61,093 nt of DNA, taken from positions 1 to 61,093 of IMG/VR virus record IMGVR_UViG_3300005577_000004; one strand, given 5' to 3'. Shown in pieces: positions 35,195 to 60,804 of this stretch; the first letter of the stretch is position 1; each line of letters starts with the position of its first letter. Source of the DNA: a virus. Made by a program: the position numbers and the translations under genes. The notes below the pieces were generated by a model. That model did no database searches and was not told the DNA's origin. It was given only the letters and a program-made list of their open reading frames with translations.

Positions 35195-38167
35195 TCAAAC
35201 GGCCTCATCAATGAAGTTGAGCTCCTTGGCCTTGAGCAGATCAATTTCCAAGACGTGCTCCTGCGGCCCCACGAAGTCCGTGCCACTGCCCAACCGGGCC
35301 TTGATCTGTATGGCACCATACTGTTGTTTCAGCGACTCAAGAGTGACGTGACGTGGGTAGCCTGTGTCAGTGAGCCACTTGGTAAGGGCTGCGATCGATA
35401 CCCGCAGCACCTTGTCTTCAACACCAACGCGGATACTGACACCTTCCAGTTTCGACGTGTCTCGGACTGGCTTGACGGTACCCGGTGTAGGTCTGCCCAC
35501 GCCTGTTCGTGCGATGTTAGTGTAGAGGACATGGCGCCCCACCATAGCACTGAAGAACTGAGAGAATACACCAGAGACATTGGCGCTGTCCTTGAAATCT
35601 GTGTTGGATGACTTGCGGATGGTTCGCATGTGTTCGAGGGTTTCGAGCAGGAAGAACTTCAGTCGCTCCTCATTGATCTTGGTGAACCCAAGTTCATTGG
35701 CATAGCGAGCCCCGGAGAGCAACACGGTGATTGTGGCGATCCAGAACCGTTCATCGGCAATGGTGTTGGTCTCCACGCCGAGTTCACGACCGAGCGCTGA
35801 TACTTCTGCCTCAAGCCGTTGGAAGTTGTTGCCGAGGAAACTGGCGTATTCCAGCCCGATCACGCCGTAGTTGTCATTTAGACGGCTAACCATGCGTTGG
35901 GCATCGGACGGATCGATACTCCACTTGCCACGTCCCTCAGTGATTTCGTACTCGAATATGCGGTAGATGCCAGCGGTCGTGGTTTTGGTCTGGCTCTCGA
36001 TAACGTCCACAAGGCTTTCGTTAGACGCGGCCACCAACAACGTCTGCCACGATCCCGGCGTCTTCTGGGCAGCACGAGCAGTAAGGCGGGACTTCTCCTT
36101 GCCCTGCGAAAGCGTGAAGACCGTGTTCGCGAATTTTTTCTGGTCTTGCTCACCCTTCAATTCGTCCCAGAACAAAGGTAGGGCGCGTATTTCACCGATC
36201 TTGTGAAGCACTGAATTCTGTGTGTCCGATAGTGACTGCATGGCGCGAACTGGATCGCCCCATACAGCTTGCGCTACTCGCATCGCTGTGGACTTACCCA
36301 CGCCCGATGGGATCGAGTAGCACGACATGAGCATACCGCTTTGCCCGGTGAACCGCACCAACGGACCAGCGAACGACGCAGCTAACATGGCGTCGAATTC
36401 CGACTTACCTTGAGAGGTAACCATCGCAGCGGCGTCGATCCACGGTTTGCGTTCACCCGTGGGTGCATACTGAGAAGCGATAACCGGGTCGGGGTTGGCC
36501 GATGGGGACGTGTTGTTGGCGGCGTATTTCATGCCACCGTAGATGAACCCTTGCAGGACGCCGTTCTTCACTTCCCACCCGAATGGATGTGACGAGATAA
36601 CAGCGTCTTTCATCTTCTGAAGATGCGCGATCCATGCCATGAGTAGTGATCCTATGTTTCGTAGTTCCGCAACGTTGTCGATTGTCATGCCTTGGCTTTG
36701 GAGAATTTTACGCATCTCCGTGGTCTCGACCGTGCCAAGTTCAATGGCGATCTGATGCTCGCGACCGAACTCGGCCTTAGTTGTGAAGTTGAAAATCCAC
36801 GGGTCACGCTGCAACCATGCCTTGGTCATAGGGTACTTGGAGACCGGCACCCACTCCTTGCGCCCCTCGCCATAGTCCTTAAGGTACAACATCACACCAT
36901 CGGATCGTTGCGTGTATCCATCAGGGATGCCCGGAACGACGATAGCTGAGTTCGCCACCGGGGCGGCGGACGATGAAGGATTGACAGGAGATATTCGCGC
37001 TCCGAAATTGAGAGGGGACTTATTTTCGACGTTATGAGGGCATAGGCTGCATTCAGTAGCGCCGTATGCTCTGATTGTGGAGCAGCCGGGCCATCCGAGG
37101 CCTTTAGTGATTTTGTCTCTTTCTTTACGGTCATATAGATCATTGGTGCTGTCCTGTGTATAACCCGGATGGCCTCGTGCCATCAGGTGTGCATGATCGC
37201 GCCCCCTGTTACCTGTGAAGGTAGCAATGAGCGTAGTCATGTTCCACAATGGATTGGTTAGCGTTTTGCCACCGTTGGTCAGTGCATTCTTGATGAACGC
37301 ACACTCAGGAATGATGGACTTCAGGTCCACCGGCAGATCATTCACGCTATCGATGCCTGCGGCGAGGTCAGAGACGCCACCTACAGGGTTTCTTTTTGGG
37401 AAGAGGGGATCAGACTTCACAGGGGTAATGTAACCCTGGAGCGGCTCCGCTATGGCGGACAAGGGGTAATCCGGGCCGCTGTCCAGTATGATGCTGACCG
37501 GCCTCGCCCCGTTGCCATGTTCGTCCAGCTTTTTAAGGTTGAACGTGCCCGGCACGCGTAGAACGCGGGCGATATCAATCGTGCATTGTGTGTCGCACTT
37601 CAGCTTGTGCTGGATCGTGGCAGCGGCTAACTGGAACGCCACTGGTTGCCATTCGTCGGGCGTGAGTGCGCGCTCGATCACCCAATACACATGCATGCCA
37701 CCACCGGACCCCACGATGATTGACGGCGACGGGAGTGGCACTTCCTTCAGGAAACGGAAGAGGTCTTTCAACGCTTCGGGTTTGCTGTCGTAGCCATGGT
37801 CGCCACCTTTGAAGTCGATGTCGATGGCGAAGACCTTGATGTCCTTGGCGTTGCGCTGGGAACGCATGGCACGCTTAGATGGCTTACCTTTGGAGGTAAC
37901 ATAGTCCTCAAGCAGAAGCTGCCGTGAAAGACAGAAATAAATGTCACGGATATAATCCGACGACTTGCCGTAGTTGAGGGCCTTCATGAACCCGTCTAAC
38001 GTTTTGTTAGCCCATCCGGTCCACAATGGCTTACCAGTTTTATGGTGTAGGTGTTTCATGGTGGCGTGCAGGTTCGCAAACCCTGCATCCGGGTCTTCCG
38101 CATCAGGCCAAGACAAGACCCGAGCGAAAAAAGCACGGACTTGCTCTTGGGTAACGATTTCTGACAT
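35195..38167 (-). CDS. Primase-helicase (archaeo-eukaryotic primase-like N-terminus, DUF927-like helicase C-terminus), 990 aa
   Basis: Makes primers and unwinds DNA for phage replication. N-terminal AEP-like catalytic pattern: DxD at Asp116/Asp118 (FAIDIDFKGG), GSGGGMHV at 153-160, and IDIARVLRVPGTFN near 197-210. A zinc-binding Cys/His cluster lies near 390-400 (CSTIRAYGATECSLCPH). The C-terminal helicase has a Walker A SGVGKST near residue 620 and a Walker B-like LPLFWDEL. Three palindrome copies (36405, 37209, 37884) lie inside the gene, translated in frame or overlapping. It is the last large leftward gene. Confidence 0.8.
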   Translation of the reverse strand: MSEIVTQEQVRAFFARVLSWPDAEDPDAGFANLHATMKHLHHKTGKPLWTGWANKTLDGFMKALNYGKSSDYIRDIYFCLSRQLLLEDYVTSKGKPSKRAMRSQRNAKDIKVFAIDIDFKGGDHGYDSKPEALKDLFRFLKEVPLPSPSIIVGSGGGMHVYWVIERALTPDEWQPVAFQLAAATIQHKLKCDTQCTIDIARVLRVPGTFNLKKLDEHGNGARPVSIILDSGPDYPLSAIAEPLQGYITPVKSDPLFPKRNPVGGVSDLAAGIDSVNDLPVDLKSIIPECAFIKNALTNGGKTLTNPLWNMTTLIATFTGNRGRDHAHLMARGHPGYTQDSTNDLYDRKERDKITKGLGWPGCSTIRAYGATECSLCPHNVENKSPLNFGARISPVNPSSSAAPVANSAIVVPGIPDGYTQRSDGVMLYLKDYGEGRKEWVPVSKYPMTKAWLQRDPWIFNFTTKAEFGREHQIAIELGTVETTEMRKILQSQGMTIDNVAELRNIGSLLMAWIAHLQKMKDAVISSHPFGWEVKNGVLQGFIYGGMKYAANNTSPSANPDPVIASQYAPTGERKPWIDAAAMVTSQGKSEFDAMLAASFAGPLVRFTGQSGMLMSCYSIPSGVGKSTAMRVAQAVWGDPVRAMQSLSDTQNSVLHKIGEIRALPLFWDELKGEQDQKKFANTVFTLSQGKEKSRLTARAAQKTPGSWQTLLVAASNESLVDVIESQTKTTTAGIYRIFEYEITEGRGKWSIDPSDAQRMVSRLNDNYGVIGLEYASFLGNNFQRLEAEVSALGRELGVETNTIADERFWIATITVLLSGARYANELGFTKINEERLKFFLLETLEHMRTIRKSSNTDFKDSANVSGVFSQFFSAMVGRHVLYTNIARTGVGRPTPGTVKPVRDTSKLEGVSIRVGVEDKVLRVSIAALTKWLTDTGYPRHVTLESLKQQYGAIQIKARLGSGTDFVGPQEHVLEIDLLKAKELNFIDEAV

Positions 38168-46819: not shown

Positions 46820-47038
46820 TTATTTGTGGATATATTTTATGAACTCAAGCAAGTCCCCTTCCTTCTGAAACCCCCAATGCGCCTCGCCGTTGAACGGCAC
46901 GCGGAGGAAATAAAAGGTGATATCGATCTGCACCTGTTTTGGATCGGGGTCTAGATTAGACATGTGCTTGACAGAAATTTGGAATGGGTATTCGGCCTTG
47001 TGGCGGTCCCAATACTGTTCCGACGAAACTTTGCTCAC
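46820..47038 (-). CDS. Hypothetical protein, 72 aa
   Basis: GTG start overlapping the polymerase stop (GTGA). Beta-rich with Asp-Pro turns and a C-terminal helix (EGDLLEFIKYIHK). Unrecognised; co-translated with the polymerase. Confidence 0.5.
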   Translation of the reverse strand: MSKVSSEQYWDRHKAEYPFQISVKHMSNLDPDPKQVQIDITFYFLRVPFNGEAHWGFQKEGDLLEFIKYIHK

Positions 47039-48924
47039 TTCGCTTCTCCATAGTTTGGTCCGATGCCAGCTTCAGAAGCCAGTGGGAGGTCAGGTCCCCA
47101 TACCGGACGGCGGTTCATTTCCTCAAGCACGATCTGGCGCACGACAGGCGCGACTTTCTCGGGCACTACATAGACCAATTCATCATGCACCTGTAGAGCG
47201 AGCCTGATGCTATACTTATCCAGCCGCCGCCTGATCCTGATCGCCGCGTCCATGATGACGATGCGAGCCAGCGACTGGCTGATATTCTCCAGCAACGCCC
47301 CACCGTAAAGCCGCTTGATCTTACCTCCGTAGGTAAACAGCCAGTTGCCGTCAGCTTGGTATAGGTCATGGTAGTATAGGCTGAGGCCAGACGGCAGGAG
47401 AATTTCACCGCGCTTCAGCTTGACCGGGCCAAAGTCCAGTTGCTTCCCACCAGCAAGGGACAACGCGATAAGGTTGTTCAACACCTTCCACGTTTGGGGA
47501 ATTTCTCGGTATGTCCTGCGGTAGGTCTGCACGATCCTAAGCCCTTCCTCAGGCTCAAGCATGATCTGTTGACCGATCTGGTTAAGGGACATAACCGGGA
47601 TGGATCGCGTGAACTTCTCGTCGCCTAAGCCGTAGCCTAGGCCAAGAATACTCTGCTTGCCGATAAATCGTTCGGGGATGTTCTTCTTAGTGACCGGGAA
47701 CCCGAACACGATACTTGCGAACTCCGAGTACACGTCCCGCCCCTCGGCGAACGCCTGCACAAGGTGCGAACACCCGGATAGCCATGCCACATGTCGAGCC
47801 TCGATCTGCGAACTGTCCACGGCGACCACGACGAAGCCGGGCGGCGCTGTGAGTGCGCGCCTGATCTGCCCACCTCGAACAAGGTTCTGGACATTGAGTG
47901 ACCAGTCACCGCTAAGCCTATGCGTGTGAGCCCCGGAGTTCCGAAGCGGCATTGGCATCAGCTTGCAGTTACCTCCGGGGGTAACGTCATTCTTGTGCCA
48001 TAGCAACCGGGAGATAGACAGAAAACGTTCGGTGCGTGTCTCCTCGATAGTGGTCTTGTGCCCTAGCCTTGCCTCGACCACAAGCTGCACAGCAACGTTC
48101 TCATGCTCACGAAGATCGTTGAACCCTTGATCTGTCTTGGCAAACGCGTATGTCTGCCGACCGGTCAGTGGGCTGATCTTCATAGGCGGATCGACGCCAA
48201 GGTTACGCAGGACTTCCGCGAACTTGTCGTTCGACATCAAATCTTCTTTGCCGTTGACGCCCGCCAACATCGCTTTGGCAAGCATCTGCTCCTTCTCCTG
48301 TTGGATGGTGAACAGGTGTTGGGCCAGTACATTCTCGTCCAAAACAAACTGCGGTTGAACAGCACAACGAAGCACCATGTCCTGCACAAGTAGTTCTTGC
48401 GCTGGGAACTGACCGTCAACCACGAGAATTCGAAATATCTCCGAGCATATGAACACGTCATCCTTGCCGTATTCGACAAAGCTTTCGTACCATACTGACT
48501 TTTTTATCTCGGCAAATCGAAGCCCCTTGGTATTCACAAGCGCATTGCCCTTGGGTCGCAGCCCTAGATGCTTGGATACGTTAGCGAGTGACAAAGACTT
48601 GAGCATGGCTCCGAGTTTGGCCCGTGCGATAGACAGCGTGTCCACCATTAGCTTTGGCACGTAGCCATATATCCACGCCATGATGCACATATCGAACAGC
48701 GCGTTGTGCGTGACGACGATTACCTCTCGGGGTAACGTCTCGAAGAACGCTTCCACGTCTGGTCCGTCGATCCAATAGGGCTCCCCGTTCAGCGTCTCAC
48801 GAACTGCCAAACCTTGTACTTCAAATCGAGGGTCAAGGATGTACTCGACCGGCGTCATCAGTTTAAGGGAGTAGACTGCATCCCAATAGGTCTCGAAATC
48901 CAAAAAGATTGTTTTCATCGGCAT
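47035..48924 (-). CDS. DNA polymerase, family A, 629 aa
   Basis: Replicates the phage genome. The N-terminal 3'-5' exonuclease has Exo I (FLDFETYW), Exo II (THNALFDMC) and Exo III (YGKDDVF). The polymerase part has motif A (VVAVDSSQIEARHVAWL), motif B (KQSILGLGYGLG) and motif C (QVHDELVYV). ATG 48924 with GGAAG is chosen; the frame extends further upstream but those codons overlap a predicted small RNA. Three palindrome copies (47321, 47969, 48720) lie in frame. Confidence 0.9.
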   Translation of the reverse strand: MPMKTIFLDFETYWDAVYSLKLMTPVEYILDPRFEVQGLAVRETLNGEPYWIDGPDVEAFFETLPREVIVVTHNALFDMCIMAWIYGYVPKLMVDTLSIARAKLGAMLKSLSLANVSKHLGLRPKGNALVNTKGLRFAEIKKSVWYESFVEYGKDDVFICSEIFRILVVDGQFPAQELLVQDMVLRCAVQPQFVLDENVLAQHLFTIQQEKEQMLAKAMLAGVNGKEDLMSNDKFAEVLRNLGVDPPMKISPLTGRQTYAFAKTDQGFNDLREHENVAVQLVVEARLGHKTTIEETRTERFLSISRLLWHKNDVTPGGNCKLMPMPLRNSGAHTHRLSGDWSLNVQNLVRGGQIRRALTAPPGFVVVAVDSSQIEARHVAWLSGCSHLVQAFAEGRDVYSEFASIVFGFPVTKKNIPERFIGKQSILGLGYGLGDEKFTRSIPVMSLNQIGQQIMLEPEEGLRIVQTYRRTYREIPQTWKVLNNLIALSLAGGKQLDFGPVKLKRGEILLPSGLSLYYHDLYQADGNWLFTYGGKIKRLYGGALLENISQSLARIVIMDAAIRIRRRLDKYSIRLALQVHDELVYVVPEKVAPVVRQIVLEEMNRRPVWGPDLPLASEAGIGPNYGEAK

Positions 48925-48940
48925 ATCTTCCACATGGGTA

Positions 48941-48969
48941 TTGACTCCACCCCCGTTTGCGACTATATA
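48941..48969 (+). promoter_or_regulatory. Sigma70-type promoter on the antisense strand
   Basis: TTGACT (48941-48946), 17-bp spacer, TATATA (48964-48969). It points away from the polymerase gene and against all local genes. A strong terminator lies 50-100 bp downstream. Confidence 0.65.
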
Positions 48970-48975
48970 ACCCTC

Positions 48976-49070
48976 GTTGCCTTTCCTGTGGGTGGAAAGT
49001 AAAATGCAAAATTGAAGCCCGCGACGGTCTCTCTTGAGCACGGAGACATTAACGTCGCGGGTTTCTTTTT
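48976..49070 (+). ncRNA. Probable phage small RNA, about 95 nt
   Basis: Defined by a consensus promoter at 48941-48969 and a strong intrinsic terminator at 49018-49070, on the strand opposite to every gene in this part of the genome. The predicted RNA has a 5' hairpin (CTTTCC/GGAAAG, 48981-48999), an A-rich single-stranded middle and the terminator stem. A tiny open frame (Met-Gln-Asn) with an upstream GGAAAG lies in the middle. It could regulate the polymerase mRNA, whose leader it overlaps antisense, act on host mRNAs, or prime replication. Confidence 0.5.
49018..49070 (+). terminator. Strong intrinsic terminator of the antisense small RNA
   Basis: CCCGCGACG pairs with CGTCGCGGG, with a nested GTCTC/GAGAC stem, followed by TTTCTTTTT on the + strand only. 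The polarity of the T-run shows that it serves a rightward transcript, though no rightward gene exists here. Confidence 0.8.
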
Positions 49071-49091
49071 GGCCCGCTCCCTCTCCCCAAA

Positions 49092-49853
49092 TTAGTTAAG
49101 CGGGTAAAACCACACCCCGTCACCATCCGGCTTCGTTGCTTTCCGCTGCCCTCCGGTGTCGGCAATGAAATTGATCTCCACATCTGGTATGCTCTGAGGT
49201 TCGAACTCTAACGGCGGCAACATTAGTGCCATGGTGACCGTAGCCGCTGTCGTTCTGCACAGCGCTCTTACCTCTGGAAGTAACGTCGGTAGCTTTCGTG
49301 GCACAACGTTGTGCATCAGTTCTTGGCGAACCACACCCAAATCGTCGTTGAGTGACATGAGCCCGAGCACGCTTGGCCAGATGTAACGCAACTGCTGCGG
49401 TGTATCACATTCTTGGTTGAGATATTTGAACACCATTTTGACATACCCCCAATCAATGGATACGTCAGCGTGTTCTTTTGCACTTGCAACCAGCGCGGCA
49501 ACAAGGTCGCGGTTACAAGGGAAATGATCCAGCCATAAGCACTTTCTCGGCAAAATTGGTGCTTTCGGGCCGTTCACTTCAAAACGTACACCGATATTTG
49601 TGTCTCGATGACGGCATATTAGGTTCTCTCTTGTCTCATTGGCGACATATGAGCCGATGTCACCAATCTGCCGCGCCCGCATCAGAACATCGATATGGTC
49701 TTCTGGTGCGATCAGGCGAAGGAGTTCTTCATACGTGATAACCGGCTTCTTGAGCGTGCGTTTGACACGCTGGAATAGCACATCGATCGATGTTTCCAAC
49801 GAAGATGTCAGCTTACCAAATGCGTAGTTGTTAAGCTTTTTCATTCTAGCCAT
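49092..49853 (-). CDS. Hypothetical protein, 253 aa
   Basis: Start overlaps the preceding stop. Mostly helical N-terminal 80 residues, then mixed alpha/beta. A palindrome copy (49268) is translated as Leu-Leu-Pro-Glu-Val. No family recognised. It directly precedes the small RNA and polymerase. Confidence 0.55.
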   Translation of the reverse strand: MARMKKLNNYAFGKLTSSLETSIDVLFQRVKRTLKKPVITYEELLRLIAPEDHIDVLMRARQIGDIGSYVANETRENLICRHRDTNIGVRFEVNGPKAPILPRKCLWLDHFPCNRDLVAALVASAKEHADVSIDWGYVKMVFKYLNQECDTPQQLRYIWPSVLGLMSLNDDLGVVRQELMHNVVPRKLPTLLPEVRALCRTTAATVTMALMLPPLEFEPQSIPDVEINFIADTGGQRKATKPDGDGVWFYPLN

Positions 49854-53559: not shown

Positions 53560-54654
53560 CTACTTGTTGAGCGCGATAGCCGCCATCAGCGACGAATTGC
53601 GCATCGACCAAGAGTTGACCGCAGGATGCCGCAACAGCGAATAGTCGCGGCGGCAAGCAGTCTGTGCGAACGTAACCGCGAACTCCTTCGGCAGGCGATC
53701 CACGTACTTGATCACCGGCTCGGCGGTGTTGTAGTCCACGCGGTGCGCCAGATTGTAGCACACCAGCATCTGGGCATCCGGCTTGTCGGGCAGCTTCGCA
53801 GCCATCGGGTCCTTGATGATGACTTCGAACTTCGGCATTTCACGATCCAGCCGAACGAACGCGAACAACTGCGACACTGCACCGGCGCCGATCATGCCTT
53901 GGACTTCTTCCATGGTCAGCGTGTCATCGGGGAAACCGGAATCGCCATTGAGCTTGGACACGACCTGAAGGAAGCGATCTGCCTCGACCAGCGAACGCGG
54001 CGTACACCACGGACCCTGCTTTTCCGGCATCTTCTCGGGCCACACAATGTGCGGGTTCTGATTGGCGAACGCCATGGTGATGGGTGACACACCATTGACC
54101 GCAGCCCATTCGTTCCACGACGCAACATCGTCGGTAATGTCGATCTCGATGCGCCGATTGATCAGATGGTCCAGTTCCTTCGTGGACCCAGAACGATCCT
54201 GCGAGCGGTTGCCAGCCATCCACACGACCCAGCCCGGAGGCAGAGTGTGCGGGCCGAGACGGCGAGACAGCGCGGCTTCACCGATGACCTTCTTGGTGTC
54301 GGCGTCCATCTTGTCGGCTTCGTCAACGATGATGATGCCGCCATCGTATTCGTCCAGCCGCTTGCCCTCGGCAGTGCGGAACCAGAACGGGTCCGTATAC
54401 TGGCTTTCAAGATGCTCCATGCCATCGCTGCCCTTGCGGGACTTCGGCACGAGATAGCCAATGCTGTCGGCGGGCGTGAGCAGCGGGCCATTGATGATGA
54501 CATTGCCGATGTTCTTGTTGAGCAGTTTCGACAAGATCGTGGAAGCCTCGACAAAGACCGTGGTCTTGCCGCGACCGGGTGCCGACTTGATATACACGCA
54601 CTTTTGTGCGGCGTACCAATACGGGATGCGCTTGAGAACGGAAGAAAGGTTCAT
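53560..54654 (-). CDS. MoxR-type AAA+ ATPase, 364 aa
   Basis: Walker A SAPGRGKTT (residues 24-32) and Walker B GGIIIVDEADKM (about residues 104-115), followed by WVVWMAGNRSQD as a sensor 1-like strand and an arginine-rich LDHLINRRIEI. ACAGGAGACTAAAGC precedes the ATG. The family couples ATP hydrolysis to remodelling by a VWA-domain partner; the VWA-peptidase gene lies 1.4 kb downstream in the same operon region. Confidence 0.8.
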   Translation of the reverse strand: MNLSSVLKRIPYWYAAQKCVYIKSAPGRGKTTVFVEASTILSKLLNKNIGNVIINGPLLTPADSIGYLVPKSRKGSDGMEHLESQYTDPFWFRTAEGKRLDEYDGGIIIVDEADKMDADTKKVIGEAALSRRLGPHTLPPGWVVWMAGNRSQDRSGSTKELDHLINRRIEIDITDDVASWNEWAAVNGVSPITMAFANQNPHIVWPEKMPEKQGPWCTPRSLVEADRFLQVVSKLNGDSGFPDDTLTMEEVQGMIGAGAVSQLFAFVRLDREMPKFEVIIKDPMAAKLPDKPDAQMLVCYNLAHRVDYNTAEPVIKYVDRLPKEFAVTFAQTACRRDYSLLRHPAVNSWSMRNSSLMAAIALNK

Positions 54655-54697
54655 GCTTTAGTCTCCTGTTTGGGTGGGTTACTTCCAGAGGTAACGT

Positions 54698-60470: not shown

Positions 60471-60804
60471 CTTCAATGTGCTCCTGCCCGTCATAGTCGT
60501 CGTCAGCGCCGCTCAACAGGTCGGCAAGCTGATCGTCCAACTGTTCATCAAACGATGCCTGTGAGTGCGCGTCGTTACCTTGCGAGGTATTGCGCTGCAC
60601 ATCTTCCACCATGGTATCGGCGGGGGGAGGTGGCACCTCCCCCATTACTTTAGCGTACTCTGGCACCATGTCGAGCGGCACGATTGCTGCACGATCATTC
60701 TTGCCGATTTGCAGGATCGTTATCTGCTTGCCGTGAAACGCGGCGTTGATCAAGTCACCAAGGGCTGGCCTTGCCACGCCCACCTTGCGCCATTGCAGTG
60801 TCAT
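60463..60804 (-). CDS. Phd/YefM-like early regulator with acidic tail, 113 aa
   Basis: ATG 60804 has AGGATTAACAAC upstream; longer frames read promoter DNA. Residues 8-48 (ARPALGDLINAAFHGKQITIL, then IGKNDRAAIVPLD) resemble Phd/YefM antitoxins, which bind DNA as dimers and autoregulate. The C-terminus is acidic and ends in SFDEQLDDQLADLLSGADDD, like the tail of the SSB candidate. No toxin gene is visible. The palindrome at 60575 is translated as Asn-Thr-Ser-Gln-Gly-Asn. It lies directly behind an operator-like dyad. Confidence 0.55.
   Translation of the reverse strand: MTLQWRKVGVARPALGDLINAAFHGKQITILQIGKNDRAAIVPLDMVPEYAKVMGEVPPPPADTMVEDVQRNTSQGNDAHSQASFDEQLDDQLADLLSGADDDYDGQEHIEDE

Follow-up and report, generated by a model that had tools for sequence, protein, structure and literature searches.

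What is encoded in the short gap upstream of the DNA polymerase gene of a phage, where a promoter and a terminator point against the surrounding genes? The sequence analyzed is a virus record of 61,093 nt (IMGVR_UViG_3300005577_000004; the entire record is referred to as the window). The window phage encodes an SU10-type portal protein, and its nearest named relatives are Rhizobium phages RHph_TM27A and its sisters, with a polymerase identity of 54%. A first-pass annotation had proposed that the gap encodes a new small RNA, antisense to the polymerase leader, that may control polymerase synthesis, act on host RNA, or serve as a replication primer. The features considered are:

47035–48918, minus strand: family A DNA polymerase gene (Pfam PF00476, E 9e-29; PHROG DNA polymerase)
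48941–48945, plus strand: −35 element TTGAC, in sequence an exact fit to the rhizobial consensus
48963–48968, plus strand: −10 element CTATAT, 17 nt after TTGAC; the promoter is kept in relatives
48976–49070, plus strand: predicted small RNA of ~95 nt (R1 covariance model match, 48967–49067)
48981–48999, plus strand: hairpin 2, with stem CTTTCC/GGAAAG (covarying) and loop TGTGGGT (48987–48993; constant)
49014–49070, plus strand: intrinsic terminator, with stem 49014–49026/49053–49065 and inner stem GTCTC/GAGAC, from the fold and covariation
49092–49853, minus strand: open reading frame upstream of the polymerase, function unknown
53560–54654, minus strand: ATPase gene (PHROG 1297), candidate target
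54663–54677, minus strand: candidate trans target CCACCC-AA-ACAGGAG (predicted duplex energy of −20.1 kcal/mol, the top rank among 50 early-strand genes)

A predicted transcript opposed to its neighbors

The published sigma70 consensus of Sinorhizobium is CTTGAC-N17-CTATAT (PMC2873474); the window promoter (48941–48968) is this consensus minus its first C. TTGAC-N17-CTATAT is the sole zero-mismatch match in the 61 kb window, and at two or fewer mismatches 15 matches are observed vs 9.0 expected; our estimate for an exact match, from base composition, is about 0.02. A generic scan of the E. coli type missed both the promoter and the terminator, as it required the sixth base of the −10 element to be T and the loop to be 8 nt or less. 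The small RNA is predicted to start 7–8 nt past the −10 box; its terminator has a U tract at 49062–49070, with the sequence TTTCTTTTT ending at 49070, and the fold of 48976–49072 has an energy of −39.8 kcal/mol. The only reading frame inside the small RNA, ATGCAAAATTGA, has three codons and is not conserved; the element has, then, what characterizes a phage small regulatory RNA, that is, its own promoter and intrinsic terminator and no coding frame. Sequence, fold, and conservation thus agree with the proposal of a ~95 nt transcript bounded by a promoter and a strong terminator on the same strand, and the transcript does run against all of its neighbors, both flanking genes being on the minus strand and the small RNA on the plus strand. 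The terminator ends ~20 nt from the stop codon of the upstream gene (49092–49853), which has no Pfam or PHROG match.

Two other features of this gap were seen. An inverted repeat in the window, TCCACCC/GGGTGGA (48946–48996), could switch the polymerase leader; visual inspection of L126 and L207 showed none of this type. At one other locus, L134, TTGAC-N17-CTATAT is located upstream of the polymerase on the polymerase strand, not on the antisense strand.

Conservation and covariation in related phages

Single-protein searches with the polymerase and with the upstream gene gave no relatives; alignments were required. At five related loci (L126, L127, L129, L205, and L207) the promoter, short hairpins, and a T-run terminator are found antisense and upstream of the polymerase; in L131 the promoter and hairpins are present and a clear T run is absent. 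Two further loci, L211 and L212, were added by a pattern scan. A covariance model was built from the transcript alone in eight phages (the window, L126, L127, L129, L205, L207, L211, and L212); it identifies one strong copy in each phage, including the window (38.3 bits, E 2e-10; this sequence is itself among the eight that define the model). A fresh polymerase search supplied loci outside the eight for testing, and three of these score with the model: L323 (44 bits, E 2e-13), L327 (31 bits, E 8e-9), and L331 (27 bits, E 4e-7), all of them close to the polymerase. The model therefore identifies 11 members including the window, that is, at least 10 related phages, two of which (L205 and L207) were found in Bradyrhizobium genomes. 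The first-pass annotation would have been refuted had relatives not kept the promoter and terminator; they do keep them. L131 is weak by the model (E 0.04 in its own record), and L322, L132, and RHph are candidate members by promoter and position only, RHph_TM27A having no model match. The small RNA is absent in L125, L130, L330, and distant relatives such as KPP25.

In a model-fitted alignment of the 11 members, both sides have changed in 12 of 16 base pairs, and 91% of the paired cells can pair vs 49.7–61% in slid versions and 74% in shuffles; compensatory changes of this kind are those of a conserved structure. The stem of hairpin 2 varies and its loop is constant: GGGU occurs in all 12 listed sequences and UGUGGGU in nine of them, and (U)GUGGGU persists across phages whose polymerases are ~50% identical. 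In L211 the loop motif is present twice, hairpin 1 repeating it as CCUGUGGGAA. A strand test (G–U vs A–C pairs, 8 to 0) was discarded; the helices had been hand-drawn to standard pairs, so it was biased.

Single elements do arise by chance, and a chance promoter and terminator, or a terminator that guards against antisense transcription, was considered; the independent recovery of new members and the covariation make this explanation highly improbable. The argument against chance comes mainly from the conservation in relatives, not from the promoter and terminator scan. The conservation, the covariation, and the constant loop are directly supported, as are the promoter and terminator sequences.

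No Rfam family matches the small RNA, in agreement with its proposed novelty, and BLASTN of the RNA gene against named phages gave no relative. In 397 Rhizobiales and 266 Bradyrhizobium genomes, strong model matches occur in phage contigs only; weak matches (E ≤0.05) occur in 76 of the 397 Rhizobiales genomes, and the best of these, which were inspected, are ordinary terminators or coding sequence rather than copies of the small RNA. Beyond phage contigs, these ~660 genomes thus gave no convincing copy, the best of the weak matches having been inspected. The pattern GCCCGCGACGGTCTC was also searched in viral contigs and was rejected because it is too short and matches unrelated sequences; a more permissive promoter-loop pattern matched 35 further stretches, of which none scored with the covariance model. 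Taken as sequence evidence, these results indicate that the locus is a real, conserved, and previously unclassified phage small-RNA gene.

Action in cis or in trans

The small RNA is located beside the polymerase gene and, by position, is antisense to its leader, as the first-pass annotation stated. A cis role would have the small RNA lower polymerase expression by leader pairing or by collision of transcription, in the style of lambda OOP or of the repABC ctRNA. The position suits such a role equally well: the small RNA takes up the space from the upstream gene to the polymerase, the −35 box is 14–31 nt upstream of the polymerase start in the nine phages where the two are directly adjacent, and precedents with the same geometry are known. 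However, other sequence separates the small RNA from the polymerase in L129, L331, and the RHph candidate; an OOP-like RNA would overlap its target message in every member, and the small RNA is antisense to the polymerase-side gap. Moreover, pairing in cis is perfect whatever the sequence, leaving the constant loop and its duplication in L211 unexplained, and relatives L125 and L330 lack the small RNA altogether. The position claimed by the annotation therefore stands, whereas the spacing and the constant loop count against control of the polymerase in cis, which we regard as a possible but secondary explanation.

The precedents differ from the window small RNA in several respects. In lambda, OOP sits before gene O. 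Our small RNA resembles OOP in its layout upstream of a replication gene, its own promoter, and a terminator near the 3′ end of the neighbor; however, OOP overlaps the end of the cII coding sequence and acts on cII, whereas the window small RNA hardly touches the upstream gene and, unlike OOP, keeps a constant loop, and no sequence relation was seen in a comparison made without alignment. OOP (pO-oop-tO) is a short phage RNA transcribed from its own promoter against early genes, and its terminator lies where the neighboring gene has its 3′ end (PMC5869508). The ctRNA of repABC plasmids (e.g., Rhizobium etli p42d) is an alphaproteobacterial antisense RNA before a replication gene (PMC3155836). 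The window small RNA likewise occupies the gap before a replication gene; unlike the ctRNA, which pairs with the repC leader and forms a terminator, it has no Rfam match and its replicon is a phage. Membership in the ctRNA family was rejected, there being no Rfam match and the downstream gene encoding a polymerase, not repC.

Because a cis-only RNA does not need a constant loop, and because the small RNA is not adjacent to the polymerase in L129, L331, and RHph, we sought targets in trans. The loop with its preceding CUCC is complementary to CCACCCACAGGAG, that is, a Shine-Dalgarno sequence with its upstream flank. In the window, UUCCUGUGGGUGG is predicted to pair with 54663–54677 (positions −23 to −9), covering the Shine-Dalgarno sequence of the ATPase gene. 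By predicted pairing, the ATPase ribosome-binding site (RBS) comes first in three phages (the window, of 50; G007, of 54; G423, of 32), second of 49 in G422, and third of 25 in G001; the ATPase is the best ranked of 15 gene families and also has the lowest p value against shuffled seeds (5e-4). Gene starts were called by an in-house script.

In a later test, mis-called starts were corrected and G006 and G425 were added, giving 11 phages; the seeds were shuffled with their anti-Shine-Dalgarno part kept. The combined p value for the ATPase RBS is ~2e-5 before and ~3e-4 after correction for the 15 families, the ATPase family having been picked as the best of 15 after the same data were viewed. 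Individual p values are 0.033 or less in six of the 11 phages (the window, G001, G007, G422, G423, and G425); the value for G425, in which the ATPase start was identified only at a later stage, is 0.008. The other five (G002, G003, G004, G006, and RHph) have no specific pairing (p ~0.24 or more). As a control, five phages without a model match have the same trend in ATPase-leader pairing (p 0.07). The leaders of these phages are generally C/A-rich; permuting the motif across all genes gave a weak result, and genome-wide enrichment of CCACCCACA before genes was notable in G001 only and weak elsewhere. Target prediction thus places the ATPase RBS first among the 15 gene families; we consider this a lead, not proof, because the ATPase was selected on the data used to test it, the leaders are C/A-rich, and the genome-wide motif test is weak.

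The same composition bears on the suggestion that the RNA acts on the host. The GUGGGU loop could bind a protein or a host RNA (mRNA or sRNA); its constancy across phages with ~50% identical polymerases would fit, and C/A-rich leaders could make the match to phage leaders a by-product. However, no homologous host RNA was found in the Rhizobiales and Bradyrhizobium genomes, and phages lacking the small RNA give a weaker ATPase signal, so we consider a host- or protein-directed role unlikely. As to a replication primer or origin transcript, the gene adjoins that of the polymerase and contains a G-rich segment; the GC skew of the window gives no signal for an origin and does not change at 49 kb, and a primer needs neither a strong terminator with a U tract nor a constant loop. 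The primer proposal thus finds no support and is very improbable.

We favor a trans-acting phage small RNA that blocks ribosome-binding sites, with the ATPase mRNA as the most consistent target, and that is also antisense to the polymerase leader (probability about 0.5). Host RNA polymerase would start at the sigma70 promoter (48941–48968) and stop at the intrinsic terminator (49070), which would yield a ~95 nt RNA. The seed would consist of the exposed hairpin 2 loop and the C/U-rich 5′ side of the hairpin stem (UUCCUGUGGGUGG); this seed would pair in trans over the Shine-Dalgarno sequences of phage early messages, that of the ATPase gene (53560–54654) being the most consistent, and translation of the messages so covered would be lowered. 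The polymerase may be affected too, since the small RNA is by position fully antisense to its leader. The seed arm is partly hidden by the stem of hairpin 2, which counts against the seed model. Transcription, seed function, target, and repression are those that we infer from the sequence; on this indirect evidence, the ATPase RBS as a trans target in the phage is better supported than cis control of the polymerase, action on the host, or priming. A broader form, to which we give little weight, is a phage-wide switch in which the G-rich loop reads ACCCAC plus the Shine-Dalgarno sequence on several early messages (the ATPase, primase-helicase, VWA protein, and others may be among them) and early translation is shut down together, the polymerase leader being antisense.

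Trans-acting RNAs of the AbcR type in rhizobia have a sigma70 promoter, a terminator, and loops complementary to ribosome-binding sites; their anti-Shine-Dalgarno loops are C/U-rich. Unlike these, the loop in the window is G-rich and would read upstream of the Shine-Dalgarno sequence (compared without alignment). Lambda PreS (LPR1) is a trans-acting phage sRNA of ~88 nt that is linked to replication, depends on Hfq, and targets host dnaN (PMC12197685). The small RNA described here resembles PreS in its proposed action in trans; unlike PreS, its candidate target is a phage gene.

To our knowledge, conservation across clearly divergent genomes is known for few small RNAs of non-model phages, and alphaproteobacterial phages have been little studied at the RNA level. 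The fixed loop, covarying frame, and named candidate target offer a testable case of RNA control in a phage early program; the two Bradyrhizobium strains that carry the small RNA, and possibly the isolated RHph phages, are test material.

Repeated sequences and other observations

An inverted repeat, GTTACC-NNNN-GGTAAC, with the Shine-Dalgarno sequence inside it precedes many genes in the window, RHph, G007, and cG409; AGGTAA occurs upstream of genes 26 times in the window vs 2.2 expected, and from its sequence and placement we read this repeat as a repeated RBS hairpin. The 9-mer GCGCACTCA is found almost exclusively on the early-gene strand (the minus strand of the window, e.g., at 60570, 58978, and 53560; also in G001, G002, G006, and G007), often just past a stop codon and shortly before the next start. 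The 8-mer GCGCACTC is similarly biased to the early-gene strand (24 to 0 in G001 and 9 to 1 in the window). Other strand-biased 8-mers, GGGCCAGT (13 to 0) and AGTGCCGC (17 to 1), occur in cG412 (L281–L282) and cG413 (L279–L280), relatives that lack the small RNA.

The "putative integrase" of RHph_TM27A (MN988461.1, 42248–45331) and the DUF927 primase/helicase-like protein of the window (35195–38167) belong to the same protein family. A plasmid search for relatives of the polymerase gave one full-length distant match only, encoded by CP061838.1 (recorded as an E. coli plasmid of 60.5 kb) and 25% identical to the polymerase of the window phage; given this match, CP061838.1 may be a phage or phage-plasmid.
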